The notes below the pieces were generated by a model. It searched no databases. It saw nothing but the letters and a program-made list of their open reading frames with translations, and was not told the DNA's origin. This document shows, one piece after another, positions 2,937-34,705 of a stretch of DNA of 35,246 nt. Every line of letters starts with the position of its first letter. Position 1 is the stretch's first letter. This stretch comes from Pirellulales bacterium (lineage in GTDB: Bacteria; Planctomycetota; Planctomycetia; Pirellulales; Thermoguttaceae). Both the position numbers and the translations under genes were made by a program. Location: assembly GCA_016933425.1 (NCBI GenBank), contig JAFGAY010000058.1, positions 1 through 35,246 of the forward strand, read 5' to 3'.

Positions 2937-2998
2937 AACCCAATCCGATGGATCGTGTGGGTGTCGTTTTTGGTTGTCGTTTTGGGTGTGAGTTTGGT

Positions 2999-3024
2999 TG
3001 TCAGGCACGGGGTGCCTGACCTAC
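2999..3024 (-). repeat. GTAGGTCAGGCAC palindromic repeat, copy 2 (inverted relative to copy 1)
   Basis: TGTCAGGCACGGGGTGCCTGACCTAC, exact reverse complement of 2911-2936, 62-bp spacer. Confidence 0.9.
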
Positions 3025-4266
3025 GAGAGAGTTTGGCGGGCGGACGTCGGTTCGGGGGCCGATGGTCATCATCGTGCCGCGCGTCAGCGGAAACTCGCGC
3101 AGGAGCGAGTTCACCTCGTCGAGCGAAACGGCTTCGAGCGTCGCCAGTTCGTCGGCGACGCTCTGGTACTCGCGCCGCACGATCCAATCGCCGCCGACCA
3201 TGAACAGCCGTCCCCGGGGCCGCTCGCCCGAGAGGACCAGCCGCGAACGGACCTTGTTTTTCGCCTGGCGTAGTTCGTCCTCGTCGACCCCCTCGCGCTC
3301 GGCCCGAGCATACAGGTCGCGCACCCGGCGGAGATTGTCGTCGATTGTTTCGGGCGAGCAACCCAGGTAGGTCATCATGACGCCGGCCCCCTCGTATTCG
3401 CAATGGTTCAGTCCGGCGTGTTCGACCAGACCCGGCTCAACCAGTTCCCAATAGAGCCGGCTCCCCAGCTCATCGCCCAGTATCGTGGCCAGCAGCTTGG
3501 CCGCGTGGCGCCGCGGGCTTTCGGCCGAAGGGCCCGGCGCCAGACCGACGGCGTACTGCTGGATCGCCGAATGTTTTTCGACCACGAGAAACTGGTCGAT
3601 CGGCTCGAATTCGGGCACGAGCCGCTCGGCCACCACGGACGGCCACATGCCGCAAGTGCGATCGGCCACGTTGACTAGCGCGTCGAAATCGATCCGGCCC
3701 GCGGCGGCCAACACGACGTTGGCGGGTCCGTATCGCCGGCGGACGTAGTCGCGCATGGCGGCCAGTGAAAGCCTTTCGATGCTTTCGACCGTGCCTAGCA
3801 CGCTGTGCGACAGGGGATGGGCGCCGAAAAACGCGGCCCGGCATTTGTCGTCGGCCCCAAACGGCGGCATGTCCTCATACATGCAGATTTCTTCGACGAT
3901 CACTTTTTTTTCAGTCTCGAAATCCTCCTCGCGCAGCGCCGGCCGCAGGATGTCGGCCAGCAGCGCGACGGTCGCATCCTGGTACTCGGGCAGCACGGCC
4001 GCGTAGAAAATCGTGTGTTCCTCGCTCGTGCAGGCGTTGTAGTGGGCGCCCAGTTCGTCGAACTCGCGATTCACGTCGTCGGCCGATCGGCTTTCGGTTC
4101 CCTTGAACGCCATATGCTCCAGAAAGTGGCTCACTCCGGCCACGTCGGCCGTCTCGTCGCGGGAGCCGGCGCGCACGAAAAAACCCAGCGCCGTCGAATA
4201 GGCCTCGGGATTGACCTCGGCGACCACCTCCAGCCCATTGTCCAGCGTACGGTTACGAAACTCCAT
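3001..4266 (-). CDS. M16 family metallopeptidase, catalytic (HXXEH) subunit
   Basis: MEFRNRTLDNGLEVVAEVNPEAYSTALGFFVRAGSRDE...HFLEHMAFKGT contains the inverted zinc motif HXXEH with downstream EEICMYEDMP; ATG at 4266 overlaps the upstream stop by 14 bp. Confidence 0.9.
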   Translation of the reverse strand: MEFRNRTLDNGLEVVAEVNPEAYSTALGFFVRAGSRDETADVAGVSHFLEHMAFKGTESRSADDVNREFDELGAHYNACTSEEHTIFYAAVLPEYQDATVALLADILRPALREEDFETEKKVIVEEICMYEDMPPFGADDKCRAAFFGAHPLSHSVLGTVESIERLSLAAMRDYVRRRYGPANVVLAAAGRIDFDALVNVADRTCGMWPSVVAERLVPEFEPIDQFLVVEKHSAIQQYAVGLAPGPSAESPRRHAAKLLATILGDELGSRLYWELVEPGLVEHAGLNHCEYEGAGVMMTYLGCSPETIDDNLRRVRDLYARAEREGVDEDELRQAKNKVRSRLVLSGERPRGRLFMVGGDWIVRREYQSVADELATLEAVSLDEVNSLLREFPLTRGTMMTIGPRTDVRPPNSLVGQAPRA

Positions 4267-7576: not shown

Positions 7577-9265
7577 CTATCCTCGGCGTCGGATCGCTAG
7601 TAGCAGCCCCAGCGATCCGAGCAGGACCAGCCCCATCGGTTCCGGCACGACGGCATTTGCTTCCCCGCCGGCGTGGTCGCCCCAGTTGGCGGCCATAATC
7701 GCGGCGTCGGCCGCATTGACCACGCTGTCGTCGTTGAAATCGCCGTCGGCCCAGCCGGCGTCCGAGGCGCCCCAATGGTCGGCGAGAATGGCGGCGTCCG
7801 TCTGGTCGACCGATCCGTCGCCGTCAGCGTCGCCGGGAATCCACGTCGCCCGCATCCACTCGAGCGTCAGTGCGTTGAGCATCGGCTGGTGATTGCCCAC
7901 GTCGGCCGTGCCCGGCTCGAAAAGAATCGTGAACACCTCGTCCTGGGCCGTGAATTCATGCGTGTAAACGTAAGCAACTTCTTGCAAGCTCTCGTCGATC
8001 CAAACTTCCGGGTTGAATTCATCGAGCGCCAGTTCCCCTTCGATACTTACGTCGAACGTCCGCGCTCCCACCGCGCGCCAGAAGAGCAATTGCAGTTTGT
8101 AGCTTTCGCCCGGAACGACGTCGAGCCGGATTTCCGCCGCACCGCCTTTTCCGTCCGAAGCGTGGTAGGCGACCGTTTCGAGAATGTTTTCCAGTGCATC
8201 GTCGTCCTGGCCCTCGCCGAATTCGGGCCGTGTTCCCGACCAGAATCCCGGACTCATCGTGTTCCGATAGCCCGCGATGGTTTCACGTCCGTCGAGAAAA
8301 CGAAGCCCGCGGATAGTTGTTTCTGCGGACCCGCCGACATTGATCGCGTAGCGGAAATGTCCTTCGAGATCGAGCTGGCTGGGTGAAGTGAATGCGGCCA
8401 GGGCGCCGGGCCGCTCGGGCTTCGACACCGCCGGAATGCCGCCGGCCGAAGGCCCGCCCAGCGACTGCATGGTTGCGTCGTCGTAAGCAAAATCGGACAG
8501 CGCGAAGCTGCCGAGGTAAATCTCCGACGTGCGGCCGGCGCCCGAGCCGTCGCCCTGAAAGACGAGATCCGCGCCCGAGTGATCCGACGCGAAAAGCAGG
8601 TAGTCGTCTCTCGCTTCGCCGCCGGGCGCCGTGCCTTGAAAGACTTGCACGCCGTTGACCCAGTATGTCACCTGATGGTTCAACCGGTCGAACACCAGCC
8701 CAATGCGTTGCCACTGGTCGTAGACGAACTGGTGATCGTCCGTCGTACCCAGCGCGCAGTGGCCCAGGCTGCCGGCCGGCCCAAGATACCACGCGGCGGC
8801 GCCGTCCAGAGCAGGGTCCGTGTTGAACATGCCGTTATATTGCAGATAGCAAGCATCGGGCACCCAGACGTCGAAGACCATCGTCCACTGGTCCATGCGG
8901 CCGTCGGTCGTGCTCGCCTCGAAGCCCGCGTGGTCGACCGCGTATCCCGAACGACCGTTGCAGGGCAGGAGGCCGTGGTGGAGATAGCGCACATGTTGGC
9001 CGTCGATGTCCGACGGTTTGCTGTAGTCGCAGATGGTCCGGCCAAACGTCGTGGCCGCTTCGATTGCGTCGGTCGGGCCCGAGGCGTCGTAATAGCACAT
9101 CGACGCCGTTGCATCCAGCGTATCGGTAGCGGTGAAGTAGGGATTTGCAAAATTCCAGACTGCCGTGGCCGCCTTGGCGGGACCGCAAACCACGACCATC
9201 GCTACGGCCGCCAGGATCATACCCGCCGAGAAACGCTGATTTGCCCACATCACCCGATGGCCCAC
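7577..9265 (-). CDS. PEP-CTERM protein with LamG/concanavalin-like domain and dockerin-like EF-hand repeats
   Basis: IPGDADGDGSVDQTDAAILADHWG and DGDFNDDSVVNAADAAIMAANWGD (dockerin-type calcium repeats) followed by VPEPMGLVLLGSLGLLLAIRRRG; start could be 9265 or 9250. Confidence 0.85.
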   Translation of the reverse strand: MGHRVMWANQRFSAGMILAAVAMVVVCGPAKAATAVWNFANPYFTATDTLDATASMCYYDASGPTDAIEAATTFGRTICDYSKPSDIDGQHVRYLHHGLLPCNGRSGYAVDHAGFEASTTDGRMDQWTMVFDVWVPDACYLQYNGMFNTDPALDGAAAWYLGPAGSLGHCALGTTDDHQFVYDQWQRIGLVFDRLNHQVTYWVNGVQVFQGTAPGGEARDDYLLFASDHSGADLVFQGDGSGAGRTSEIYLGSFALSDFAYDDATMQSLGGPSAGGIPAVSKPERPGALAAFTSPSQLDLEGHFRYAINVGGSAETTIRGLRFLDGRETIAGYRNTMSPGFWSGTRPEFGEGQDDDALENILETVAYHASDGKGGAAEIRLDVVPGESYKLQLLFWRAVGARTFDVSIEGELALDEFNPEVWIDESLQEVAYVYTHEFTAQDEVFTILFEPGTADVGNHQPMLNALTLEWMRATWIPGDADGDGSVDQTDAAILADHWGASDAGWADGDFNDDSVVNAADAAIMAANWGDHAGGEANAVVPEPMGLVLLGSLGLLLAIRRRG

Positions 9266-15024: not shown

Positions 15025-17190
15025 TCACGCGCAATCGGAGCGGCACTCATGACGGTCGTCCTCGCGAGCAACAACCCGGAGAGACGGCGGCGTGATCTTG
15101 GACAACTCGGTCGTTGCACTCGCGGCCCAGCGAGCCAGGGCGAGCAGCGGGAAGTAGACGCGGTAGTAATGATAACGGAGATAGAAGACCTGGGGAAAAC
15201 CCGTGCCGGTGAACTCGGGTTCGTCCCAAATGCCATCGGTCGTCTGGCGGTCGACCAGAAATTGGACGGCCCGGGTCACGGCCGGATGGTCCTCCAACCC
15301 GGCGGCCATGAGGCCGAGCATGGCCCAAGCGGTCTGCGACGGCGTTTCGGAGCCGTCGCCGGGAGTGCCGTGCGACTCGTACGTGTCGGCCGATTCACCC
15401 CAACCGCCCGATGGCTTCTGGCACGAAAGAAGCCAATTGACGCCTCGGGCAACCATCGGGTCGCCGGCCGGCACTCCGACAGCCGCCAGCCCGCCGAGCA
15501 CCTCGCCCGTGCCGTAGATATAGTTCACGCCCCAGCGGCCGAACCAGCTTCCGTTGGCTTCCTGCGAGCGGCGCAAATAGGCGACCGCGCAATCGACGGC
15601 CGGATCGCCTACCCGAAGTCCCAACTCGCCCAGCGTACCGAGCACGTGGCCGGTCAGGTCGGGCGTGCTTGGGTCTATCATCGCGTTATGATCGGCGAAG
15701 GGCACATGGCAGAGAAACCGCCGATCGTTGTTCCGGTCGAACGCGCCCCAGCCGCCGTCGCGGTTTTGCATCGCCAGAAGCCAGTCGAATCCCCGCTCGA
15801 TCGCCTTGGTGGAACGGTCGAGTCGGGCCACGCCGACCTCGGCGGGCTCTGCGGTCGCCGGTTCGGTCAGCCGCAAATCGGGCGGCAGCGCGTCGGCCGA
15901 CTCGCCGTTCTTTCCAAACTGGGTTTGCAGCGCCGCCAGCGCCAGCGCCGTGTCGTCGTTGTCGGGATAGAAATCGTTGTGATACTCGAAGGCCCAACCG
16001 CCCGGCTCAGCCGAAACCGTATCCGACCAGTCGCCGGGCGTGAGAATTTGCTTGTCCAGCAGCCAATCGACGCCTCGGGCCAGTGCCGGATGGTCGCGCC
16101 GGAGACCCGCGGCGGCCAGCGAACGAATCACCAGCGCCGTATCCCAAACGGGCGATTTGCACGGCTGCAACCGCAGGGTGTCGCACTCCTCGTCCTCGAT
16201 CGCCAGCGCTTCGAGTTGATCGAGGCATTCGGCCAGCTCGGGGCTGTGCTCGGCGTGGCCCAACGCGCGCAAGGCGACGGCGCTGAAAACGATCGGCGGA
16301 AAAATGGCGCCCAGCCCGTCGCTGCCGGCGAACCGTTTGAGCATCCACGCCTCGGCCCGGCGGATCGCACGGCGGCGCAGCGGCGTGAAACCCCGGCGCT
16401 GGCACCATTTGAGCGTCGAGTCGACCGCGCGGAAGAAACGGTCCCAACCGAACCAGCCCGTATCGCTGTCCGTTCCCGCGCCGCGCAGCGGCGGCCAGTC
16501 CTCGGGCTCGCGGACGAATAGCTCGCGAATGCCTTGCTCCTCGTCGAGCCGGCGCGCCGGGCGGAGGGCCGACACGATCGAAAGAGGAACAATCATCGTC
16601 CGCGACCAAGCACTGACCGACAGCAGATTGACCGGAAACCACTTGGGCAGCAGCATCACTTCCGGCGGCACGGCCGGCGTTTGCTCGTAGGAAATCTGGC
16701 CCAACAACGCCAGATAGAATCGCGTGTAGCTGTTGACCACATCGGCGCCGCCGTGGGCGAGGATCGCCCGACGCGCACGCTGCATGTACTCGGCGCTCGG
16801 ATCGTGGCCGGTGAGCTTCAAGGCGAAATAGGCCTTCACGCTGCCGCTCGGTTCGTGCCGCCCACCCGGATACATGGCCCAACCACCCTCGGGCAACTGG
16901 GTCTCGACAAGACGGTTGGCGGCGCGGCGCGCGCGGTCGGAATGCTCGCGCCCGAAGAAGGCCAACAGAAGAATGTACTCGCTCTCCAGAATGGAATCGC
17001 CTTCGAGTTCCGCAACCCAATGGCCATCGTCGTGCTGCGCGGCGAGCAGCCACTGACGCGCCGCGGCAATCGCGGCGCGCGCCGGCACGATCAATCGTCG
17101 GGCGGCCAGGGGGTCGGGCTCGCTCGGCGCGGGCGATGATCCCGGTTGACCCACCGCGAGACGATTTCTCCCCTCCGACAAAGTCTTCAT
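15025..17190 (-). CDS. shc: Squalene-hopene cyclase
   Basis: DXDD motif in FYPDNDDTALALAALQ; multiple QW motifs (QNRDGGWGAF, QEANGSWFGRWGVNYIYGTGEVL, QKPSGGWGESADTY, QTTDGIWDE). Start taken at MKTLSEGR (17190); an upstream in-frame ATG at 17259 is possible. Confidence 0.95.
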   Translation of the reverse strand: MKTLSEGRNRLAVGQPGSSPAPSEPDPLAARRLIVPARAAIAAARQWLLAAQHDDGHWVAELEGDSILESEYILLLAFFGREHSDRARRAANRLVETQLPEGGWAMYPGGRHEPSGSVKAYFALKLTGHDPSAEYMQRARRAILAHGGADVVNSYTRFYLALLGQISYEQTPAVPPEVMLLPKWFPVNLLSVSAWSRTMIVPLSIVSALRPARRLDEEQGIRELFVREPEDWPPLRGAGTDSDTGWFGWDRFFRAVDSTLKWCQRRGFTPLRRRAIRRAEAWMLKRFAGSDGLGAIFPPIVFSAVALRALGHAEHSPELAECLDQLEALAIEDEECDTLRLQPCKSPVWDTALVIRSLAAAGLRRDHPALARGVDWLLDKQILTPGDWSDTVSAEPGGWAFEYHNDFYPDNDDTALALAALQTQFGKNGESADALPPDLRLTEPATAEPAEVGVARLDRSTKAIERGFDWLLAMQNRDGGWGAFDRNNDRRFLCHVPFADHNAMIDPSTPDLTGHVLGTLGELGLRVGDPAVDCAVAYLRRSQEANGSWFGRWGVNYIYGTGEVLGGLAAVGVPAGDPMVARGVNWLLSCQKPSGGWGESADTYESHGTPGDGSETPSQTAWAMLGLMAAGLEDHPAVTRAVQFLVDRQTTDGIWDEPEFTGTGFPQVFYLRYHYYRVYFPLLALARWAASATTELSKITPPSLRVVAREDDRHECRSDCA

Positions 17191-17428
17191 AGCAGTATCC
17201 GTATCTGCTGATTGTTTCTTCCATGAAATGCCGCCGACCAAGCGGCCCCATCGCGGCACAACGCGTCCGGTAGCTTATGCAATCGAGGGGCAACTGGCAA
17301 GAGAAGTCGAAAATACGAGCCAAGAAGCCGGAAGGGAAAAGGAAGACGCGGGAGAGTAAGAAACGAAAAAGGATTGTGCCGGGTGGCCGCCGGCCGAGCC
17401 TTTTCACTCTTTCGGATAAGATATGTAT

Positions 17429-19401: not shown

Positions 19402-19452
19402 AAGCAGGTCGATGGGCCGGGGCGCGAGCTGTAGGCCGGGTTGCAACCTTGT

Positions 19453-20340
19453 CTACAACAGGGCCGTGCTGAAATAGCGTTCGGCTCGGTCGGGCAGGAC
19501 GGTGACGACGTTGCCCGGGTGGGTCTTGGCCCATTGGCGCGCGGCCCAGACGTTGGCGCCGGACGAAATTCCGCACAGCAGACCGAAGTCGCGGCCGATT
19601 TGCCGGGTCGTTTCGATGGCGTCCTCGTCGGTCACCTCGATGACCTCGTCGACCAGGGAAATGTCGAGCACGGCCGGAATGAAGCCGTCGCCGATGCCTT
19701 GAATCTGGTGCAGACCCGGCTCGTGGCCCAGCAGGGCCGAGACGTCCTTGGGCTCGACGGCGACTACTTTGGCCTCGGGCCTGTGTTCCTTCAGAAAACG
19801 GCCGACGCCTTGCAGCGTGCCGCCGCTCCCCACGCCGGCGATGAAGCAATCGACCTCGCCCGACATTTGACGCCAGATTTCCTGGGCCGTTTGTTCGTAG
19901 TGGCATCGAGGGTTATCGGGATTGCCGAACTGGTTGGGCACAAAGATGCGCGGATCGGCGGCGGCCATTTCCTCGACCACGCGGACCGCCCCGCCGATGC
20001 TCTCGGCGTCGGGCGTAAGAATCAACTCGGCGCCGAACGCCCGGATGATCTTTTTGCGTTCCTCGCTCATTCCCTCGGGCATGACGATGCGGACACGATA
20101 GCCCTTGAGCCGGCCGATCAGGGCCAGTCCGATGCCCGTGTTGCCGCTGGTCGGCTCACAGATGATGGTGTCGGGTCGCAGTCGCCCGTCGCGTTGGGCC
20201 CCCTCGAGCATGGCCAGGGCAACGCGGTCCTTAATGCTTCCGCCCGGGTTGAGAAATTCGGCCTTGGCAAAGATATTTTCGCCGGCCAGTTGAACCAGCG
20301 GCGTGTTGCCGATCAGATCGAGAACGTTGTCGGTGCGCAT
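19453..20340 (-). CDS. cysK: Cysteine synthase (O-acetylserine sulfhydrylase)
   Basis: LIGNTPLVQL, NPGGSIKDRVAL (PLP lysine), EPTSGNTGIGLA, GVGSGGTLQGVGRFLKE, CGISSGANVWAA. Confidence 0.95.
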   Translation of the reverse strand: MRTDNVLDLIGNTPLVQLAGENIFAKAEFLNPGGSIKDRVALAMLEGAQRDGRLRPDTIICEPTSGNTGIGLALIGRLKGYRVRIVMPEGMSEERKKIIRAFGAELILTPDAESIGGAVRVVEEMAAADPRIFVPNQFGNPDNPRCHYEQTAQEIWRQMSGEVDCFIAGVGSGGTLQGVGRFLKEHRPEAKVVAVEPKDVSALLGHEPGLHQIQGIGDGFIPAVLDISLVDEVIEVTDEDAIETTRQIGRDFGLLCGISSGANVWAARQWAKTHPGNVVTVLPDRAERYFSTALL

Positions 20341-20586
20341 GGTGCGGCCCCCGAGGATCCTGGAGGATTCTTATCGAACCAGGACTATACCACGGCGACG
20401 CGAGCGGCCGCAAGATTGGGCTGGCGTCGGGGCGTTCTTTCCGGGCAGCGAATAAGGCAAGTGACCCCAACGTCCGCGATTCGCGGGGTGGATTGCCGGG
20501 GTGTGGACAATCTGCTAGACTGGACAATTCTCCGAAATCCGATGTTGTCCGTGGCCTGCCCCTTGTCTCAAGGAAACACACGTCCC

Positions 20587-22677
20587 ATGTTCGGAATGCA
20601 TCCGCTTCTGGCCGAGACGGCAACCACCGGCGCGATGGTCGAATCGGCCATTTCCTGGATCGATTGGCTGGTTGTCGCCGGGTATATCTGCGGCGTCGTG
20701 GGCCTGGGACTTTGGGTCGGGCTTCGGCGCAGGGCGTCGGAGGGGGCGGGCTATTTCCTCGCCGAGAAGTCGCTCACATGGCCCGTCATCGGCCTGGCCC
20801 TCTTTTCGACCAACATTTCGACGATCCATCTGGTTGGTTTGGCGCAGTCGGGATACACCACGGGCCTGGCCTACGGCAATTTCGAGTGGATGGCGCCCTT
20901 CACGCTGATTATCCTTTCGCTGTTTTTCGCGCCTTTCTATCTTCGGTCGAAGGTGACCACGCTTCCCGACTTTCTCGAAAAGCGCTATTGCCGTCCGTGC
21001 CGCGACTGGCTGGCGGCCATTTCGATCCTCTCGGCCGTGTTCGTCCATCTGGGATTCACGTTGTTCACCGGCGTCGTTGTGCTCGAGGGCTTCTTGCTCA
21101 ACGATCTGGTGGCCAATCCGGCCGCGTGGCGCTGGGTGACGCTGTGCGTCATCGGCGGGCTGGCCGGACTCTATACGATCGTCGGCGGCCTGATGGCCGT
21201 CGTGCTGACCGAATCGCTCGACACAATCGTGCTGCTAGTCGGCGCGATCTGCATCACAATCTTCGGATTCGTCGCCGTCGGCGGCTGGGACGGGCTCGAA
21301 AAGGCGATGGCCGAATTGGCCGAGGCCAAACAGCTTGCCCAAACGTCGCCCGAGTTGGCCGCCGAGGCTAGTCCGATCAATCCGCATGAGATTCCCGACA
21401 ATGTTGGAAAACACCTGAGCATCGTGCGTCCTCACGGCGACACGTCTACCTTGCCCTGGTACTCCGTCCTGCTCGGCTATCCGGTGATCGGCATCTGGTA
21501 CTGGTGCACCGATCAGACGATTGTTCAGCGCGTGCTCGGGGCCAAGAACGAGAACCACGCCCGGGTCGGGCCGCTGTTTGCCGGGTTCATCAAGGTGTTG
21601 CCGGTGTTCATTTTCGTTTTGCCGGGCATTATATGCCTGACGATGATCCACCAGGGCCAGATGGGCACGCTGCCGGTGATGCTCGACAAGGCCGGCCAGC
21701 CGATTCTCGACGCGGTGACGGGCCAGCCCATCCCCAACACGAAGGCCACGCTCGACACGCTGATCAAGGGTCTTCTGCCGACGGGGCTCAAGGGCCTCAT
21801 GGCGGCCGCGCTCTTGGCGGCGCTCATGAGCACCGTGTCGGGCGCGCTCAACTCGATCGCCACGCTGTTTAGTTACGACCTCTACAAACGATGGCGGCCC
21901 GACACGTCCGACCGAAAACTGGTCGGCATCGGCCGCATCGTGACGGGCTGCGCCATGGTGGCGGCCATTGCCTGGTCGCCCTACGTCGAGAAGCTCGGCG
22001 GCATTTTCGACGGGCTGAACAAGATGATTACCTTCATTGCGCCGCCGATCACCGCTCTATTTCTCTTAGGCGTTTTCTGGCGCAAGGCCACCGGCCGGGC
22101 GGCGCTTGTCACGGCCTGGTTTGGAACGCTGCTCGGGCTGGTCACGTTCCTGCTCACTTTCCTCGGCACGCTCGATGCATTCGAGCCTTTCGGCACGCTC
22201 GACACATGGACCAAACATCTCGGTTTTCAGATTCCATTTCTTCTGATCGGGTTCTATCTCTTCATTGTTTGTTCGATTGTCCTGGTGCTCCACTCCTATT
22301 CGCGGCGGCTGACCATACGGATCAGCGCGGCCGGCACGATCGTCGGCGCCGTCGGGGCCATTGCCATTGCGGCGGGCGCTTTGGATCTCTTGGCCGCGCA
22401 GACCACGACCGCGGCGTCCGACGCATTGCTCGTTTATCCAACGTGGCTCCCGTGGGTGCTCGTACCCGGTTTTCTATTTGGCGTGAGTTCGCCCATCCTG
22501 CTGTTGATCACGCTCTTGGTGCCCGATCAGCCCGAGTCGCCCGAGCGGGACGAGCTTGTCTGGAAATCGCCCTTGGAACCACTCCGCGGTCAAGCGTGGC
22601 GCGGAATCGGCAATTTTCGCGTTTTAACGGTGGTTCTCTTCGTGACGATGATCGTTTTCTACTGGCTTTTCTCGTAG
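20587..22677 (+). CDS. Sodium:solute symporter (SSS family, SGLT-like)
   Basis: GYFLAEKSLTWPVIGLALFSTNISTIHLVGLAQSGY, LPDFLEKRYC, IGIWYWCTDQTIVQRVLGAKNENHAR, LMAALMSTVSGALNSIATLFSYDLY; ORF extension upstream of 20587 is antisense to cysK and rejected. Confidence 0.92.
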   Translation: MFGMHPLLAETATTGAMVESAISWIDWLVVAGYICGVVGLGLWVGLRRRASEGAGYFLAEKSLTWPVIGLALFSTNISTIHLVGLAQSGYTTGLAYGNFEWMAPFTLIILSLFFAPFYLRSKVTTLPDFLEKRYCRPCRDWLAAISILSAVFVHLGFTLFTGVVVLEGFLLNDLVANPAAWRWVTLCVIGGLAGLYTIVGGLMAVVLTESLDTIVLLVGAICITIFGFVAVGGWDGLEKAMAELAEAKQLAQTSPELAAEASPINPHEIPDNVGKHLSIVRPHGDTSTLPWYSVLLGYPVIGIWYWCTDQTIVQRVLGAKNENHARVGPLFAGFIKVLPVFIFVLPGIICLTMIHQGQMGTLPVMLDKAGQPILDAVTGQPIPNTKATLDTLIKGLLPTGLKGLMAAALLAALMSTVSGALNSIATLFSYDLYKRWRPDTSDRKLVGIGRIVTGCAMVAAIAWSPYVEKLGGIFDGLNKMITFIAPPITALFLLGVFWRKATGRAALVTAWFGTLLGLVTFLLTFLGTLDAFEPFGTLDTWTKHLGFQIPFLLIGFYLFIVCSIVLVLHSYSRRLTIRISAAGTIVGAVGAIAIAAGALDLLAAQTTTAASDALLVYPTWLPWVLVPGFLFGVSSPILLLITLLVPDQPESPERDELVWKSPLEPLRGQAWRGIGNFRVLTVVLFVTMIVFYWLFS

Positions 22678-22726: not shown

Positions 22727-22766
22727 CAGGCTGCAACGGCATGGCATTAACCGCGTGAGACTCCCC

Positions 22767-25487
22767 ATGTCCACAAACAAGCCGATTGTCGATGATACGG
22801 TTGTCGTCATTCTCGCGGCCGGCAAGGGAACGCGGATGGGCCGCGACGACCAGGCCAAAGTTTGCTTCGAAATCGACGGCGCGCCGGCCATCAACCGGAC
22901 CATCGCCGCGTTCAAGAAAAACCGCTTCAGCCGGTTCGTGCTCGTGCTGGGGGATCGGGCCGAACAGGTGCTCCAGACGGTCGACGCCAAGCACCCGGGC
23001 GCGATGTACGTCTATCAGCATCCTCAGTTGGGCACCGGCCACGCCGGACGCATCGCCGCCGACGCGCTGGCGACCATGGGCCACGAAGGCCATGTGTTTG
23101 TGTCGATGGGCGACAAGCACATCGAACCGGTGGCGATCGAAACGCTCGTGGCCGGCTACGTCAAACTGCAACCCGACATGGCTTTGTTGACCCTGCCGCG
23201 ACCCAAGGGTTCCGACGCGCCCGGCGGACGCGTGTTGTTGGATTCGTCGGGCCAGGCCGTGGACATTATCGAGCAGGCCGACCTGGCGAAGCAGTCGATC
23301 GTCGACGAGTTGACCGACGCGGCAGCGCGGAACGGCTCGGTGTCGGCCGACGAAATCCGCGACGTGGTGGCCCGGCATCTGCCCAAGCCCGACAAGCAAA
23401 AGATCGCCGTGCCCGAACTGCTCGAGCTGGCCCGGCGACGTAAGACGATCGACGCGGCGGCGCTGGCGCGATTGTTCGACGAGGCCCGCTATCACCTGGA
23501 GATCGACGGCCGGCATTATTCCGCGCGGCAAATCGACGGGATGTGCACCGGGTTGAATCCGAGTCTTTATCTGTTTCGGGCCGAGGCATTTTACACGGGC
23601 ATGGGTCTGCTGTGCAACGACAACGCCCAGGGCGAGTACTACATCACCGACGTGATCCGGCGCCTGGCTTCGGTCCGCGACGAACGGGGCGCGGCGCGGT
23701 ATAAGATCCGGTCGGTCCCGGCCGGCAATCGCGATTGGGTCCAGGGTTTCAATTCGCCCGACGAGTTGCTGGCCATTGCCGATTACGTCCGCCGCAAGAA
23801 GCTGAGCCGGGCAAAGGCGGCGTCGCAAGGGCAGGGGGGCCGGCCTCGGCTCAAGCCGAACCAGTATGCCACGGTTCGCCAGTGGCTCTCGAAGATCGAG
23901 GCGGGCCGACCAAGCCTCGGCCGGTGGCTTACGCGGATTTATGGAAAACACGATGCCTTGCACGAGGCCAAGACGAAGGACCTGGCCGCGGTCCTGGCGT
24001 GCTTCGGCAAGCAGTTCGGATTTGATGAAAAAGTCTGCATCGTTCGCGCGCCGGGGCGAGTCAACCTGATGGGCCGCCACGTCGATCACCGCGGCGGATC
24101 GACCAACTTCCTGGCAATCGACCGCGAGACGATCGCCGTGGCCTCGCCGCGCGACGACAACAACGTCGTGGCCGTCAGCACGCGGCCGCGCCAGTTCAAA
24201 CCGGTGCGGTTCAACGTTTCCGAGCTGATCGGCCGATTCGGATGGAGCGATTGGATAAACTTCGTCAACAGCGATTGGGTCCGCAATTTGCTTTACGGCG
24301 CGGCGGGCGACTGGGGCAACTACGTCAAGGCGGCCATGCTCCGGCTTCAACACCAATTTCAGGACGTTCAGGTCCGGGGTCTCAACCTGGCCGTGCATGG
24401 CAACGTGCCGATGGCCGCGGGCCTGAGCAGCAGTTCGACGCTCGTGGTGGCCACGCTCCAGGCGGCCATCGCCCTGAACGGCTTCGAGCTGACCAGCCGG
24501 CAGTTCATCGACCTGTGCGGCGAGGGGGAATGGTTTGTCGGCTCGCGCGGCGGCGCCGGCGATCACGCGGCCATATACCTAGGCCAGCGCGGCAAGATCG
24601 CCCACGTCGGCTACCTTCCCTTCCGCGTCGAACGCATTCTCGACGCGCCGAAGAACTATCAGCTAGTCATTGCCAACAGCCACGTCAAGGCCGCCAAGAG
24701 CGCGGCGGCCAAACACACGTTTAACGAAAAGGTGGCCGCTTACAATCTGGGCCTCGCCCTGCTGAAACAACGCTGTCCCGAGGTTGCCGCCTCGCTTCAG
24801 CACGTGCGCGACATCGATCCGGAACGATTGGGCCGCACGACCAGCGATATTTACCGAATGTTGCTCAAAGTGCCCCAGTTCATGACTCGCCGCGATTTTC
24901 GCTCGATGTTTTCCTCGGAACACGCCGACTTGCTCGACGTGAATTTCGCCACCCACGACGAGCCGGATCGCTACAATCCGCGGGGAATTCTGTTGTATGG
25001 CGCGGCCGAGATCATGAGGAGCCGCATGTGCGGCGACCTGCTCCAAGAGCATCGCATCGAGGAACTGGGCCGGCTCATGAACGTCAGCCACGACGGCGAC
25101 CGGATTAGCCGCCGCGCGGCCGACGGCGCGTATCAAATGGTCGAGGAACCTTATACCGACGCTTGCCTGAACCAGTTGATCTCGGACCTGGCCAGCGAAG
25201 ACCCGGCGCGAGTGCTGGGCGCTCAGCTCTACATGCAGCCGGGCGCCTACCGGTGCAGCACGCCGGAAATCGACCGGATGGTCGACGTGGTCCGCGAAGC
25301 GCCGGGAGTGGTTGGAGCGCAGTTGGCCGGCGCCGGGTTGGGCGGCTGCATCATGATTCTCGCCCACCGCGATCGCATCGATGCCGCGCGCAAGGCATTG
25401 GTCGACCGCTACTATCGCCCCAAGGGGCTCAAGCCCGACGTCCTGCCGTGCATCGCCACCGACGGGGCCGGACTGGCCGAATTCTGA
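22767..25487 (+). CDS. Bifunctional sugar nucleotidyltransferase - GHMP (galactokinase-like) kinase fusion
   Basis: N-terminal VVVILAAGKGTRMG, HPQLGTGHAGR, QGEYYITDVIRRL (GlmU-like pyrophosphorylase); C-terminal VRAPGRVNLMGRHVDHRGG, GNVPMAAGLSSSSTLVVATLQAA and GAGLGGCIMIL (GalK/GHMP motifs 1-3); one uninterrupted frame. Confidence 0.9.
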   Translation: MSTNKPIVDDTVVVILAAGKGTRMGRDDQAKVCFEIDGAPAINRTIAAFKKNRFSRFVLVLGDRAEQVLQTVDAKHPGAMYVYQHPQLGTGHAGRIAADALATMGHEGHVFVSMGDKHIEPVAIETLVAGYVKLQPDMALLTLPRPKGSDAPGGRVLLDSSGQAVDIIEQADLAKQSIVDELTDAAARNGSVSADEIRDVVARHLPKPDKQKIAVPELLELARRRKTIDAAALARLFDEARYHLEIDGRHYSARQIDGMCTGLNPSLYLFRAEAFYTGMGLLCNDNAQGEYYITDVIRRLASVRDERGAARYKIRSVPAGNRDWVQGFNSPDELLAIADYVRRKKLSRAKAASQGQGGRPRLKPNQYATVRQWLSKIEAGRPSLGRWLTRIYGKHDALHEAKTKDLAAVLACFGKQFGFDEKVCIVRAPGRVNLMGRHVDHRGGSTNFLAIDRETIAVASPRDDNNVVAVSTRPRQFKPVRFNVSELIGRFGWSDWINFVNSDWVRNLLYGAAGDWGNYVKAAMLRLQHQFQDVQVRGLNLAVHGNVPMAAGLSSSSTLVVATLQAAIALNGFELTSRQFIDLCGEGEWFVGSRGGAGDHAAIYLGQRGKIAHVGYLPFRVERILDAPKNYQLVIANSHVKAAKSAAAKHTFNEKVAAYNLGLALLKQRCPEVAASLQHVRDIDPERLGRTTSDIYRMLLKVPQFMTRRDFRSMFSSEHADLLDVNFATHDEPDRYNPRGILLYGAAEIMRSRMCGDLLQEHRIEELGRLMNVSHDGDRISRRAADGAYQMVEEPYTDACLNQLISDLASEDPARVLGAQLYMQPGAYRCSTPEIDRMVDVVREAPGVVGAQLAGAGLGGCIMILAHRDRIDAARKALVDRYYRPKGLKPDVLPCIATDGAGLAEF

Positions 25488-28107: not shown

Positions 28108-30720
28108 ATGTCAAGATCGAAAGCCGCCGTTCTGATGTTGACGTTACTCCTGTCGGTCAGCACGAGTCCGTTGCCAGCCGAAGAAAATCTTGTTGTTGAT
28201 TTTGGCTATAAGCCGCCCCAGTGGCGCACGGCCATCTGCCCCCCCGACGACCCGTATAAAACGCTGGTCGACGAACAGGGGACGCTCATGCTCCACTACC
28301 CGGGCCGAGTCCGGTGGTTTGGCACGCATGTTTCCGTAAGAGTTGCCGACGAGGCGAAGATCGTCGATCAGCGACTCGTCTCTCCCCGCGTGGCCATCAT
28401 CGAAACCCGGCAGGAAACTCCCGATCTGTCGATCCTTCAAGAGGCGTTCGCCTTGCGCGAGGAAGGCCCGGCCCAACCACGCCGGAAATACGCCGCCCAG
28501 CGCAAGGACGGCTCAACGCTCGAACGCAACTGGGCTCATCCAACGGGCGACGTCACCGATAAACTGTCGTCGATCGCGGTGCATCGCCAGGTCGCGGTTC
28601 AGTATCACATTGAGGTTCCCCGCGGCGCTTCGGCAACAATTGCCCTGGGACTCTGCGAAGGGTGGCACGATCAGCCGGGCCGGCGAGTGCTGGACCTGAA
28701 CGTCGAAGGCGCGCCGGCGCGCCAGGTCGACATGGTCAAGGACCTCGGCAAGAACATCGCCGGCGCGTTCTGGTTCAAAGCGCGGGACGTCGACGGCGAC
28801 GGCCTGATCAATTTACGGGTAGTCGCCGCCGAAAACGCGCAAGACAAGGCGGCTATTCTCAACGGCTTTTGGGTTTTCGACGGCGACGCGGAACAAGACA
28901 GCGCTGCCCTGCTGGCCGGCAGGCTCGACCGCCAGGCGGCCCTGGTCCACTACGCGGGCCAGCGCGACAATGTCTCGCGCAACGACGTCATCCTTGTCCA
29001 CGTCACCAATAAGAGCGCTGTCGCCCAGACGATCGAACCGGAGGTCGTCGTCAACAGCACCCGAAAGATCGAACTGCTCGACGACCACGTTCGCCTCGAC
29101 GGCCACGAAATCGTCACAACAACCCAACCGGTAGCCGCGATCAAGGAAGAAACGCTTAAGGGGATCCGGCAAGCGACCATGACGCTGGCCCCGCTGGTCG
29201 TTCCGCCGGGCAAGACCGTCCGGTTCGCGGTGGTTTATTGCGGGGGCGGGCGGATTGTGCGCAACCCGACCGCCACGGCCGCCGCCGAACAAGCCCGGCG
29301 CGACTGTGAAACGTTTTGGAAAACGGCCAAATTACCTTACGACCGCGTCACCGTGCCCGATCCCGTCATTCAGAGCCTCATCGACAGCTCGATCCGCAAC
29401 ATCTGGCAGGCCCGGGAAATCAAAAACGGCCTGCCCGCATTCCAGGTCGGCGCAACGTGCTACCGGTCGTTGTTTATCGTCGACGGAGCGTTTATTCTCG
29501 AAGCCGCCAGCCTGGTCGGCGCGGGCGACGATACCCGGGCCGGCATCGAATATATGCTCAGCTTCCAGCAGGACGACGGCCGATTTGAAATTTTGCCGCG
29601 TTACCACAAGGAAAACGGTATTGTCCTGTGGACGTGCGTTCGCCACGCCATGCTCACGCAGGACAAGGACTGGCTCCGCTCGGTTTGGCCCAAGCTCGAA
29701 AAGGTTGTCGCTTATATCGAGCATCTTCGCAAACTCAGCTACCAGGACGCGACGCCTTTAAACGATGGGCTGCTGCCCGCCGGCTTTCCCGACGGCGGCA
29801 TCGGGTGGACCGATCACTACGAATACACGAACGTTTACTGGAATCTCCTGGGACTCAAGGCAATCATCCAGGCGGCGCGATGGCTCGACCGAAACGATCA
29901 GGCCGATCAATGGCAGCGGGAATACGATGATTTTCTCGCCGTCTTTCGCAAGGCTGCCCAGCGCGATACGCGGCCCGACATCCACGGAAACCGCTACCTG
30001 CCCATCCTCATGACGATTGAGGATCGCGTCCTCAGGAAGGCCCACGATTGGTATTACCCCTGCAAGGCCCAATGGTCGTTTTGCCATGGCGTTTATCCGG
30101 GCCAGCTTTTCGACAAGAACGATCCGTTGGTCAAAGGCAACCTCGACATGCTCGCCACGTACCTGCGCGAGGGCATGGTCACGACGACCGGCTGGCTAAC
30201 CGACGGAATCTGGAATTATTTTGCCTCGTTCTACGGCCACGCCCTGTTGTGGCAAGGCGACGGCCGCGGGGCTGCGAAACAGCTCTATGCCTTCGCCAAC
30301 CACGCCTCTCCGTTGCTGGCCTGGCTCGAGGAACAAGGCTATCGCGGCGAAACCGCCTATGAAAACGGCGACATGCCCCACAACTGGGCAAGCGCCGAGT
30401 TCGTCCGCTTGGCGATTCACATGCTGGCGCTCGATCGCGGAAACGAAATGCACTTGTTCGAAGGTTTGCCCGTCGAATGGGCCGGACCGGGAATGGTAAC
30501 GCGACTTTCCGGCATCGCCACGCCATTTGGTGAACTCGCGGCCGAGTTAAAGATGAGCGACGACGGCAAATCGGCCACGCTCTCGGTCGAACCGCTCTCC
30601 GATCCGTCGTGCGAAAAGATCGTGGTTCACCTCGGCGGCTGGGCCAGCACCGACGCCGGGGCAACCAAAACGCTCGATCCGAGTAAAAAACACCGGATAA
30701 CCATCCCCATCGTGCGTTGA
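28108..30720 (+). CDS. Secreted six-hairpin ((alpha/alpha)6) glycosidase-like protein, family unresolved
   Basis: Signal peptide MSRSKAAVLMLTLLLSVSTSPLPA; malectin-like stretch VAVQYHIEVPRGASATIALGLCEGWHD; helical-barrel-like SIRNIWQAREIKNGLPAFQVGATCYRSLFIVDGAFILEAA...GDMPHNWASAEFVRLAIHMLALDRGNEMHLFEGLPVEWAGPG. Confidence 0.7.
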   Translation: MSRSKAAVLMLTLLLSVSTSPLPAEENLVVDFGYKPPQWRTAICPPDDPYKTLVDEQGTLMLHYPGRVRWFGTHVSVRVADEAKIVDQRLVSPRVAIIETRQETPDLSILQEAFALREEGPAQPRRKYAAQRKDGSTLERNWAHPTGDVTDKLSSIAVHRQVAVQYHIEVPRGASATIALGLCEGWHDQPGRRVLDLNVEGAPARQVDMVKDLGKNIAGAFWFKARDVDGDGLINLRVVAAENAQDKAAILNGFWVFDGDAEQDSAALLAGRLDRQAALVHYAGQRDNVSRNDVILVHVTNKSAVAQTIEPEVVVNSTRKIELLDDHVRLDGHEIVTTTQPVAAIKEETLKGIRQATMTLAPLVVPPGKTVRFAVVYCGGGRIVRNPTATAAAEQARRDCETFWKTAKLPYDRVTVPDPVIQSLIDSSIRNIWQAREIKNGLPAFQVGATCYRSLFIVDGAFILEAASLVGAGDDTRAGIEYMLSFQQDDGRFEILPRYHKENGIVLWTCVRHAMLTQDKDWLRSVWPKLEKVVAYIEHLRKLSYQDATPLNDGLLPAGFPDGGIGWTDHYEYTNVYWNLLGLKAIIQAARWLDRNDQADQWQREYDDFLAVFRKAAQRDTRPDIHGNRYLPILMTIEDRVLRKAHDWYYPCKAQWSFCHGVYPGQLFDKNDPLVKGNLDMLATYLREGMVTTTGWLTDGIWNYFASFYGHALLWQGDGRGAAKQLYAFANHASPLLAWLEEQGYRGETAYENGDMPHNWASAEFVRLAIHMLALDRGNEMHLFEGLPVEWAGPGMVTRLSGIATPFGELAAELKMSDDGKSATLSVEPLSDPSCEKIVVHLGGWASTDAGATKTLDPSKKHRITIPIVR

Positions 30721-31130: not shown

Positions 31131-31182
31131 TGTGAAAGGAATCCTTCGAGAATCAGCCACCCAGGGTGGGAGACGACGGCGG

Positions 31183-31959
31183 ATGCTGGTCGAACAACGG
31201 CGAAATCAACTGTTGGAACTCGTTCGGGCGAAGCGATTTGCCTCGCTGCCCGAGCTGGTCGAGCAATTGTCGGTTTCCGAGTCGACTATCCGTCGCGACC
31301 TAGAGTATCTGGAGGAACAGGGGGCTGCGAAACGTATTCATGGCGGCGTGCTTTACGCGGGCGAGGCGCCCCAATTGGCCCATTTCGAGCAGCAATCGGC
31401 CCATTGGGAGGAAAAGCGAGCCGTCGCCCGGCGCGCCGTCGAATTGATCGAAGAAGGCGATTCCATCCTGCTGGACGGCGGGAGCACGACGTACGAGGTG
31501 GCCCGGCTCTTGGTTGGGCGCCGTCTGCACGTCGTGACGAATTCGCTTCCGGTGGCCAACCTGCTGTCCGGCAACACGGCGAACGACGTCGTGCTGGTCG
31601 GCGGCAACGTTTGTCCGCGATCGGGCGTGATGCATGGGCCGTTGGCCAACGAGATGATTACCGCGCTTCGCGTGCGCAAGGTCATGCTGAGCGTGGCGGG
31701 AATCAACGACGAGGGATTTTTCAACAACAACCTACTGTTCGTCGAAACCGAGCAAGCCATGATCCGCGCGGCCGACGAGGTAATCGTCGTGGCCGACAGT
31801 TCGAAATTCGGCCGGCGGAGCCTGACCCACGTCTGCCGGCTCAACGAGGTCGATCACCTGGTGGTCGATGACGGAATTTCAGACGAGTGGCGAGAAAAAA
31901 TTATCGCGGCCGGCGTCGATCTGAGGATCGGCTGCCAGATCGAGCACGTTGAAGGATAA
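31183..31959 (+). CDS. DeoR family transcriptional regulator (BMC operon)
   Basis: [56 protein letters not shown] (DeoR HTH), [30 protein letters not shown] effector domain. Confidence 0.93.
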
Positions 31960-31969
31960 AAATCGAACC

Positions 31970-32632
31970 ATGAGCATTGCAGCTTCCCTGGATCGAAGCG
32001 TCGTTGAACAAATTGTTCGCGAGATCGTGCTCGCGCAGACGGGCCGGCGCACCAGCGGGCCCGAGCTGGTCGTGAGCATCTCGGCGCGCCACGTCCACCT
32101 GAGCGACGAGCACGTCGAAACGCTTTTTGGCGCCGGACGCAAGCTGACGCCGGCCAAGGATCTTTTTCAGGAAGGCTATTTCGCGGCCGAGGAGACGGTT
32201 ATGATCGTCGGACCGCGCAAGCGAATGCTGCCGACCGTGCGCATCCTGGGCCCAACCCGCGGCGACAGCCAGGTCGAACTGGCGTTTACCGACTGCATAT
32301 CGCTGGGCATCGACGCACCGGTTCGTCTGAGCGGCGACCACGAGGGAACGCCCGGCTGCGTGCTGGTTGGTCCGGCGGGCGTGGTCGAATTGACCCGGGG
32401 CGTGATCCGCGCCGAGCGCCACGTCCACATGAGCCCGGCCCAGGCGGAGTTTTACGGCGTGAAAAAGGGCGACCTGATGCATCTTCGCGTTCACTCGCCA
32501 TGCCCGACGACGTTCGAGGGCGTGGTAGCGCGGCCGGGCGAAGGATTGAAGCTCGAAGCCCACCTCGACACCGACGAAGGCAACGCGGCCGATTTGGACC
32601 ACGCCACCGGCGTCGAGCTATATAAACCATAG
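31970..32632 (+). CDS. pduL: PduL-type phosphate acyltransferase (BMC-associated)
   Basis: [65 protein letters not shown]; amphipathic N-terminal helix [19 protein letters not shown]. Confidence 0.93.
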
Positions 32633-32708
32633 GGGGGTGTATTACCACGCATCCCACCAAAACTTTCGTATCGTACCAATTGGAGTTACCTTTCGGGAGA
32701 AACCCACC

Positions 32709-33014
32709 ATGGCAAAGAAGATGGAAGCGCTGGGCATGATCGAGACCAAGGGATTCGTCACCCTGGTCGAGGCCAGCGACGCGATGATCAAGGCGGCCAA
32801 CGTCGAGTTCCTCGGCTGGGATAAGGTCGGCAGCGGCATGGTCAGCGCATTCGTGACGGGCGACGTGGCCGCCGTCAAGGCGGCGACCGACGCCGGCGCG
32901 GCCGCCGGCGGCCGAATCGGCGAAGTCGTCAGCGTTCAGGTCATTCCCCGGCCGCACGACGACCTGGGAACCTGCTTGAAGTTCCTCGGCGGATGCCCCG
33001 TCGAGAAGAAGTAG
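32709..33014 (+). CDS. BMC-H microcompartment shell protein 1
   Basis: [63 protein letters not shown]...[13 protein letters not shown] is a canonical BMC (Pfam BMC) domain. Confidence 0.96.
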
Positions 33015-33045
33015 ACCGTGAGGCGCGCGTTCCACGCACCAATGT

Positions 33046-33067
33046 GTAGGTCAGGCTGTGCCTGACA
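33046..33067 (+). repeat. GTAGGTCAGGC palindromic repeat between the shell protein genes (forward copy)
   Basis: GTAGGTCAGGCTGTGCCTGACA. Confidence 0.85.
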
Positions 33068-33087
33068 CACACAAATAATCCGCGTTC

Positions 33088-33108
33088 GTCAGGCACCGCC
33101 TGACCTAC
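33088..33108 (-). repeat. GTAGGTCAGGC palindromic repeat between the shell protein genes (inverted copy)
   Basis: GTCAGGCACCGCCTGACCTAC, inverted relative to 33046-33067. Confidence 0.85.
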
Positions 33109-33192
33109 ATTCCGCGGATGCGTGCTTGCTCGCATCCTAGACAGACAAAACAAAAGACTATCAAACCTTTCGAGAACAAGGAATCAAACACC

Positions 33193-33462
33193 ATGCAAGA
33201 CGCCATAGGACTTTTGGAAACCCGCGGACTCGTGGCTTTGGTTGAGGCGACCGATGCCATGGCGAAAGCCGCGAACGTGCAGATTGTCAAGCGAGTCGAT
33301 ATCGGCGGCGGCCTGGTCACCACGGTTGTTCGCGGCGACGTCGGCAGCGTTCGCGCGGCGGTCGAAGCCGGGGCCAACGCGGCCAGCGGCGTCGGCGAGC
33401 TCGTGGCCAGCCACATCATTCCCCGGCCGGCCGACGGCGTGATCGAAGCCTACCTCAAGTAA
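33193..33462 (+). CDS. BMC-H microcompartment shell protein 2
   Basis: [64 protein letters not shown]...[12 protein letters not shown]. Confidence 0.96.
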
Positions 33463-33520
33463 GCCGAGCGATCCGACGGCGCAACGCGCGACGCATCCGA
33501 ACGCATCAGGAGAAACCGCG

Positions 33521-34705
33521 ATGAAGATACTCGTAGCCAATCTCGGCTCGACGAGCTTCAAATATCGCTTGTTCGACATGGACGATCAGCGCCAACTGGC
33601 GCGCGGCGGGATCGAACGCATCGGCTCGGCCGAAAGCCGGTGCACCGTCGAGACCGGGACGCATCACCGCGAGGAGACCACGCGCGTCGCCGATCATGCC
33701 GCGGCGGTTCGCCAGTGCCTGGCCCAACTGACCGATCCGGAGCATGGCTGCCTTGCCGACGCTTCGGAGTTGGCGGCGATCGGATTCAAGGCGGTTCACG
33801 GCGGTCGCTACACCGGGGTCCAGCGCGTCACGGTCGAGTTGCTCGACGAGATGGAAAAAATGAACCATCTGGCCCCGGCCCACAATCCGCCTTACGTGGC
33901 CGCCATGCGTCAACTGGCCGAGCGTTTGCCCGACATCCCGCTGGTCGCCGCCTTCGAGACGGGATTTCACCAGACGATTCCCGAACGCAACCGGACGTAT
34001 GCCGTGCCCTATGAGTGGGCCGACGAGGTGCTGGTTCGCCGCTGGGGCTTTCACGGCGCCAGTCATCGCTATATCGCCGTGCGGACGGCCGAAATCATCG
34101 GCCGCGACGACCTGCGGATCATCTCGTGCCACCTGGGCGGTTCAAGCTCGCTTTGCGCGATCCGCGACGGCCAAAGCGTGGCCAACAGCTTCGGCATGAG
34201 TCCCCAAAGCGGCCTGCCTCACAACAACCGCGTGGGCCTGTTCGATCCTTTCGCCCTGCCGGCCATTATGCGTCATACGGGCAAATCGCTCACCGAGGTG
34301 CTCGAACTGCTGGCAACCCGGGGCGGGCTGCTGGGAATCAGCGGCACGAGCGGCGACCTGCGCGACGTCGAAGCGGCCGCCGCGTCGGGCGACGCCCGAG
34401 CACGGTTGGCCGCCGACGTCCTGGTGACCGAGGTGCGTCATTGGCTCGGCGCGTATCTGGTCGAATTGGGCGGCGCCGACGTGATCGTTTTTACCGGCGG
34501 CATTGGCGAGAATCGCGCCGCATTTCGCGAGTCCGTCTGCCGCGATCTGGACGCCTTCGGCATCGTGCTCGACCCACAAGCCAACCGCGAAGCTCAAGGC
34601 GAAGCCAAAATCAGCGCGGCCGATAGCCGCGTTCAGATTTGGGTTATCCCGACCAACGAAGAGTTGGTCGTCGCACGACAAACCAAGGAGTTGCTCGAGA
34701 ACTAG
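33521..34705 (+). CDS. ackA: Acetate/propionate kinase
   Basis: [92 protein letters not shown]. Confidence 0.96.

Follow-up and report, generated by a model that had tools for sequence, protein, structure and literature searches.

A planctomycete fusion of a GlmU-type nucleotidyltransferase and a galactokinase-type GHMP kinase, with a predicted role in nucleotide sugar formation from free sugar

The window analyzed here, a stretch of 35,246 nucleotides from a Pirellulales bacterium, carries on its forward strand a gene (22767..25487, +, from ATG at 22767 to a TGA ending at 25487) for a 906-residue fusion of a GlmU-type nucleotidyltransferase with a galactokinase-type GHMP kinase. Based on its sequence, we consider it likely (with a probability of roughly 0.8) that this protein is a bifunctional enzyme that phosphorylates a sugar and then attaches a nucleotide to it, whatever that sugar may be. 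In the reaction that we propose, the C-terminal kinase would phosphorylate the free sugar at C1 at the expense of ATP, and the N-terminal domain would combine the resulting sugar-1-phosphate with UTP, the presumed nucleotide donor, to give UDP-sugar and pyrophosphate. The sugar would most likely belong to the N-acetylhexosamines (similar to GalNAc or GlcNAc), and may have an acidic or otherwise modified C6 recognized by Arg437 of the kinase together with a basic residue, 117, of the nucleotidyltransferase.

The preliminary description of this DNA had proposed a single 907-residue frame in which a GlmU-like pyrophosphorylase is joined to a GHMP kinase. The single frame and the fusion are both borne out, the latter by Pfam, NCBIfam and homologue evidence; the length is, however, 906 residues, the figure of 907 having included the stop codon. 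Homologues begin at the same methionine in the alignment, and an in-frame GTG at 22755, upstream of the ATG, would give 910 residues. Pfam places four domains on the protein, all above their cut-offs, namely NTP_transf_3 (residues 13–140, a MobA-like nucleotidyltransferase), GalKase_gal_bdg (412–461), GHMP_kinases_N (518–606) and GHMP_kinases_C (817–883), while NCBIfam assigns the first half to GlmU and the second to galactokinase, with both scores well below the curated cut-offs. Taking GlmU family models, PDB sequence matches and Foldseek together, the nucleotidyltransferase domain extends over residues 12–340 (22800..23786, +), and Pfam, NCBIfam and PDB sequence matches place the kinase domain at residues 409–903 (23991..25475, +).

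The fusion is genuine. Homologues at 71–78% identity, either full-length or truncated by contig ends, are present in metagenome-assembled genomes of Pirellulales (Planctomycetota); within the order, 24 of the 397 genomes gave matches, nearly all of them full-length and all in one family, and across the phylum 10 of 392 genomes did so, where fusions at 56, 41, 37, 34 and 32% identity occur along with unfused kinases. Both halves are under purifying selection, with dN/dS values against close relatives of 0.10–0.24 for the kinase, which is the better conserved half, and 0.19–0.40 for the nucleotidyltransferase. Since the full-length homologues (32–78% identity) have common catalytic residues and the frame is under purifying selection, an origin by chance or as a frameshift artefact can be ruled out. 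Judged from the alignment, both halves retain their catalytic residues, and the loss of such residues from one domain, which the preliminary description had named as speaking against its reading, is not seen in the aligned fusions.

Within the nucleotidyltransferase half, the alignment of fusions shows a nucleotide-binding signature, LAAGKGTRM (22812..22838, +), with G19, R23 and M24 invariant, followed by a G115–D116 pair (23109..23114, +), in which D116 aligns in profile with the metal-binding Asp of GlmU and presumably shares that role, which we take from general knowledge of GlmU. PDB sequence matches and the alignment also identify GlmU-like acceptor-site segments comprising N264, Y268 and NAQGEYYITD (residues 286–295; 23556..23651, +), corresponding to the GlmU pattern N..Y..NAQxExY(L/I)TD. 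The uridyltransferase residue set of GlmU (GxGTRM, K, Q, GT, GD, E, N, NAQxExY) is thus present, and R23, K31, Q84, G89, T90, D116, E169, N264, Y268, N286, Q288, E290, Y292 and N329 are invariant in all 28 fusions. The best 35 Foldseek matches to a model of this half are all GlmU, so that the uridyltransferase domain of GlmU is the nearest family by both sequence and fold, with catalytic and acceptor residues in common.

By the tests run, nevertheless, the fusion is not a member of the whole bifunctional GlmU family: it scores 99.4 bits with TIGR01173 (whole GlmU), below the cut-off of 366.85, and Pfam detects no hexapeptide acetyltransferase domain in it. In contrast to GlmU, it has no detected left-handed beta-helix acetyltransferase and carries a variable insertion within the nucleotidyltransferase domain (residues ~178–255; 23298..23531, +), itself absent from two relatives (L072 and L074). 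A further difference lies directly after the GD pair, at K117 (23115..23117, +), which is Lys or Arg in 27/28 fusions and Ser, Thr, Val or Ala in the GlmU-type proteins compared; this residue may contact the sugar. The AlphaFold model of the whole protein, made with an input of seven sequences, is confident over most of the nucleotidyltransferase half except the insertion, and too poor in the kinase half for residues of that half to be placed on it.

The kinase half has what is expected of the GHMP superfamily, that is, the Pfam N- and C-terminal domains, an SSSS phosphate-binding loop (GLSSSS, residues 552–557; 24420..24437, +, from sequence and alignment) and a catalytic Asp, D599 (24561..24563, +), which PDB matches and the alignment pair with the catalytic Asp of galactokinases and which is Asp in 27/28 fusions. 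R431, H438, D440, R739, H775 and R779 are invariant (28/28). Its sugar-binding signature, GRVNLMGRHVDHRGG (residues 430–444; 24054..24098, +), has R437 in place of Glu43 of galactokinase and H441 in place of a Tyr four residues beyond the Glu. These E-to-R and Y-to-H changes, already pointed out in the preliminary description, are properties of the family, as the GEH of galactokinases reads GRH in each of the 28 aligned fusions and H441 is His in all except one. The best NCBIfam model for the kinase is TIGR00131 (galactokinase), at 158.9 bits against a cut-off of 226.65, and the galactokinase signature GEHTDYN is not found in the fusion, which has GRHVDHR instead; by these tests, the fusion falls outside the galactokinase equivalog.

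When a profile of 13 fusions was compared with the PDB, the first match was the human GalNAc kinase GALK2 (2a2c, E 3.9e-47), followed by yeast galactokinase and GlmU, and GALK2 was also the first match to two family members used as single queries (L049 and L053); AbGHMP (PDB 9ulx) was a weaker match. GALK2 is thus the nearest solved relative of the kinase half, and in both proteins a Phe (Phe652 in the fusion) replaces Tyr236 of human galactokinase. They differ in that GALK2 has GEHIDYCG whereas the fusion has GRHVDHRG, an insertion of ~45 residues after SHDGDR, and the fused nucleotidyltransferase. We take Glu43 of galactokinase to bind the C6 hydroxyl of the sugar. In the FKP complex (PMC11982464), the equivalent of H438 stacks on C4–C5–C6, the C2-OH contacts the match of D599, the C3-OH those of D440 and H441, and the C4-OH that of D440; by position, this contact map has R437 facing C5/C6.

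The source genome (3.7 Mb, 89% complete) carries two ordinary galactokinases with the GEHTDYN motif, both outside the clade of the fusion family, and galactose would therefore already be served. With these separate enzymes and with signature changes that run through the family, the earlier suggestion that some sugar other than galactose is the probable substrate gains support. A third galactokinase-like paralogue of the same genome (L079:3833-5431, −) has the motif GRVEVLGKHTDYAGG.

In architecture, the fusion is of the same type as two known enzymes, with both catalytic domains on one chain and the pyrophosphorylase first. FKP, the L-fucokinase/GDP-fucose pyrophosphorylase of Bacteroides fragilis (949 aa), is a single chain that converts a free sugar into a nucleotide sugar, with the pyrophosphorylase N-terminal and the GHMP kinase C-terminal (PMC11982464). 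The analogy with the logic of FKP that was drawn previously is thus sound, but the "reversed domain order" claimed with it is not, as the order is the same. The N-terminal half of FKP has a beta-helix and uses GTP, and its kinase places Trp599, Asp601 and Thr602 at the sugar (PMC11982464), whereas the fusion has a GlmU-like nucleotidyltransferase with no acyltransferase domain detected (no hexapeptide model matches) and a galactokinase/GALK2-like kinase, for which models and PDB matches are of galactokinase type, with no FKP chain among the matches. The zebrafish protein DrGKUP, a glucuronokinase/putative UDP-GlcA pyrophosphorylase of ~260 + 357 aa, likewise has an N-terminal nucleotidyltransferase and a C-terminal GHMP sugar-1-kinase, although its kinase is a different one and, by the published alignments, its halves belong to other branches of both superfamilies (PMC3938481). 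The kinase of DrGKUP takes glucuronate, while its pyrophosphorylase activity could not be demonstrated (PMC3938481). Because DrGKUP has this layout, the two-step logic is not new; the present fusion was not found described in the literature searched, a limited library.

A tree built on the kinase half groups the 33 rows in a single clade, with a support of 99, separate from ordinary galactokinases. Fusions branch outside as well as beside the unfused relatives, which suggests an early origin of the fusion and its later loss in some lineages. The position of R437 is Met in four unfused relatives (L050, L052, L053 and L078) and Arg in one (L054). The unfused kinases of L052, L053 and L078 come after a gene for a hexapeptide-repeat protein, and that of L052 also after an inositol-monophosphatase-family gene. 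One genome with an unfused kinase (G051) encodes a stand-alone nucleotidyltransferase (L101:6091-7269) that resembles the fused one and has an insertion at the same place, and the two perhaps constitute a split version of the system. Plasmid records gave only ordinary galactokinases, at ~25% identity.

Directly upstream of the fusion gene, ending 90 bases before it, lies a gene for an SGLT-like sodium:sugar symporter (19441..22677, +), and a symporter of this kind is also directly upstream of the fusion in a close relative (L075). The SGLT-like domain is preceded by ~400 residues with no family match (19441-20740, +), which in L075 form a separate open reading frame (2985-4148). Elsewhere in the window are a squalene-hopene cyclase gene (15025-17259, −), genes for a dockerin type I domain protein (7577-9265, −) and a PEP-CTERM protein (226-1518, −), and a set comprising a DeoR-type regulator, a PduL-type phosphate propanoyltransferase, a BMC shell protein and an acetate kinase (31132-34702, +), apparently a section of a planctomycete bacterial microcompartment locus. 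Between a XylE-like transporter and these microcompartment genes is an 870-residue frame with no Pfam or NCBIfam match (28108-30720, +).

Neighbors of the fusion gene vary between genomes, and the sole recurrent one is an amidohydrolase resembling NagA, the N-acetylglucosamine-6-phosphate deacetylase family. It is found directly upstream of the fusion in three genomes of one tree clade (G598, G690 and G725), and ~1.5 kb downstream in another (G630); in a fifth (G253), it immediately precedes the unfused kinase gene. These amount to 3 independent lineages of ~20, for a gene chosen after all neighbors had been scanned and present in one to three copies per genome; three independent adjacencies by chance are unlikely, with a rough estimate of ~1e-5 that becomes ~0.01–0.05 when all neighbors scanned are allowed for. 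The copies beside the fusion or unfused gene all score below the NagA model cut-off, and the source genome gave no NagA match at E 1e-15. Two other readings of the neighbors were discarded. An acetate theme was suggested by an acetate kinase adjoining the gene in L060/L061 and an acetate-CoA ligase near L072/L074, but the acetate kinase of the window belongs to the microcompartment-type locus and the ligase near L073 is a fatty-acyl ligase; a DHDPS-family neighbor in L071 was ruled out as NanA, being DapA.

Two lines of evidence bear on the substrate. An N-acetylhexosamine-type sugar is indicated by GALK2 as the nearest solved kinase, the GlmU-type acceptor residues and the NagA-like neighbors, and on these grounds we regard a role in HexNAc-type salvage, in the broad sense, as an even bet. 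As regards GalNAc itself, GALK2 is simply the nearest solved structure to the kinase half, and Arg437 would fit plain GalNAc poorly since GALK2 retains the Glu. The invariant Arg437 and the conserved basic residue 117 point to an acidic or altered C6. Both lines would be satisfied by an aminouronic acid or a 6-substituted HexNAc, whereas plain GalNAc or a plain uronate would set them at odds. A specific version that we tentatively put forward, itself rather unlikely, is the formation, by a route so far undescribed, of a UDP-sugar whose C6 is acidic (an aminouronic acid, for instance, or a 6-sulfo- or 6-phospho-HexNAc), in which a basic residue added to each active site, R437 and K/R117, would read the charge at C6.

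Nearly on a par with this version, although doubtful, is salvage of a uronic acid, in which C1 phosphorylation of galacturonate or glucuronate would lead on to UDP-uronate, as by plant galacturonokinase and UDP-sugar pyrophosphorylase or by DrGKUP. The plant galacturonokinase reportedly has the motif GAHIDHQGG, close to the GRHVDHRGG of the fusion, and Arg437 on the C6 side, along with the basic residue 117 of the nucleotidyltransferase site, would suit a 6-carboxylate. The domain order, too, is common to DrGKUP, a glucuronate kinase fusion, but the nucleotidyltransferase of DrGKUP is of another group, aligned with 1H5T and 2PA4 (PMC3938481). That of the fusion is instead of the GlmU, N-acetylhexosamine type, and the NagA-like neighbors do not fit a uronate. 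Cell-wall recycling, with MurNAc and/or GlcNAc phosphorylated at C1 and then uridylylated, would share its two-step logic with the separate enzymes AmgK and MurU and would fit both the NagA-like neighbors and a dipeptide-epimerase-like neighbor in L060/L061; the anionic lactyl group could also call for a basic residue. On the FKP map, however, R437 would lie on the C6 side and the lactyl group on the C3 side, the dipeptide-epimerase-like neighbor occurs in one genus only, and the gene is patchy in a phylum whose members mostly keep a wall, making this explanation improbable.

Slightly less probable again is a plain galactokinase and UDP-galactose pyrophosphorylase in which the motif change is neutral, since the 159 bits that make TIGR00131 the best NCBIfam model fall short of its cut-off, the Glu-to-Arg change is fixed in the 28 fusions, and the genome has its two GEHTDYN enzymes outside the clade. 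Finally, most holders of the fusion have no other GlmU-like match at E 1e-10, which would be expected if the fusion replaced GlmU in de novo UDP-GlcNAc synthesis with the kinase half secondary. Against this stand several non-holders that lack GlmU as well, the better conservation of the kinase half, and the presence of PF01704 (AGX-like pyrophosphorylase) in 49 of 53 planctomycetes, whether or not they hold the fusion (it is absent from 14 control genomes), and we consider this replacement very improbable. The fusion as the sole source of UDP-GlcNAc is likewise not supported, given how widespread PF01704 is and the missing GlmU of several non-holders. None of 56 Planctomycetota genomes gave a full-length GlmU that scores above the cut-off of TIGR01173, and many of them have a GlmU-type nucleotidyltransferase of ~250 aa instead.

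Enzymes able to convert a free sugar directly into its nucleotide form are rare, and they are of use in preparing sugar donors in one catalytic step. With a GlmU-type domain joined to one of GALK2 type, the fusion would add another, distinct pairing to those of FKP and DrGKUP, and the fixed Glu-to-Arg change provides a testable case of substrate change among galactokinase-like enzymes. The identity of the substrate would show which sugar these planctomycetes salvage.
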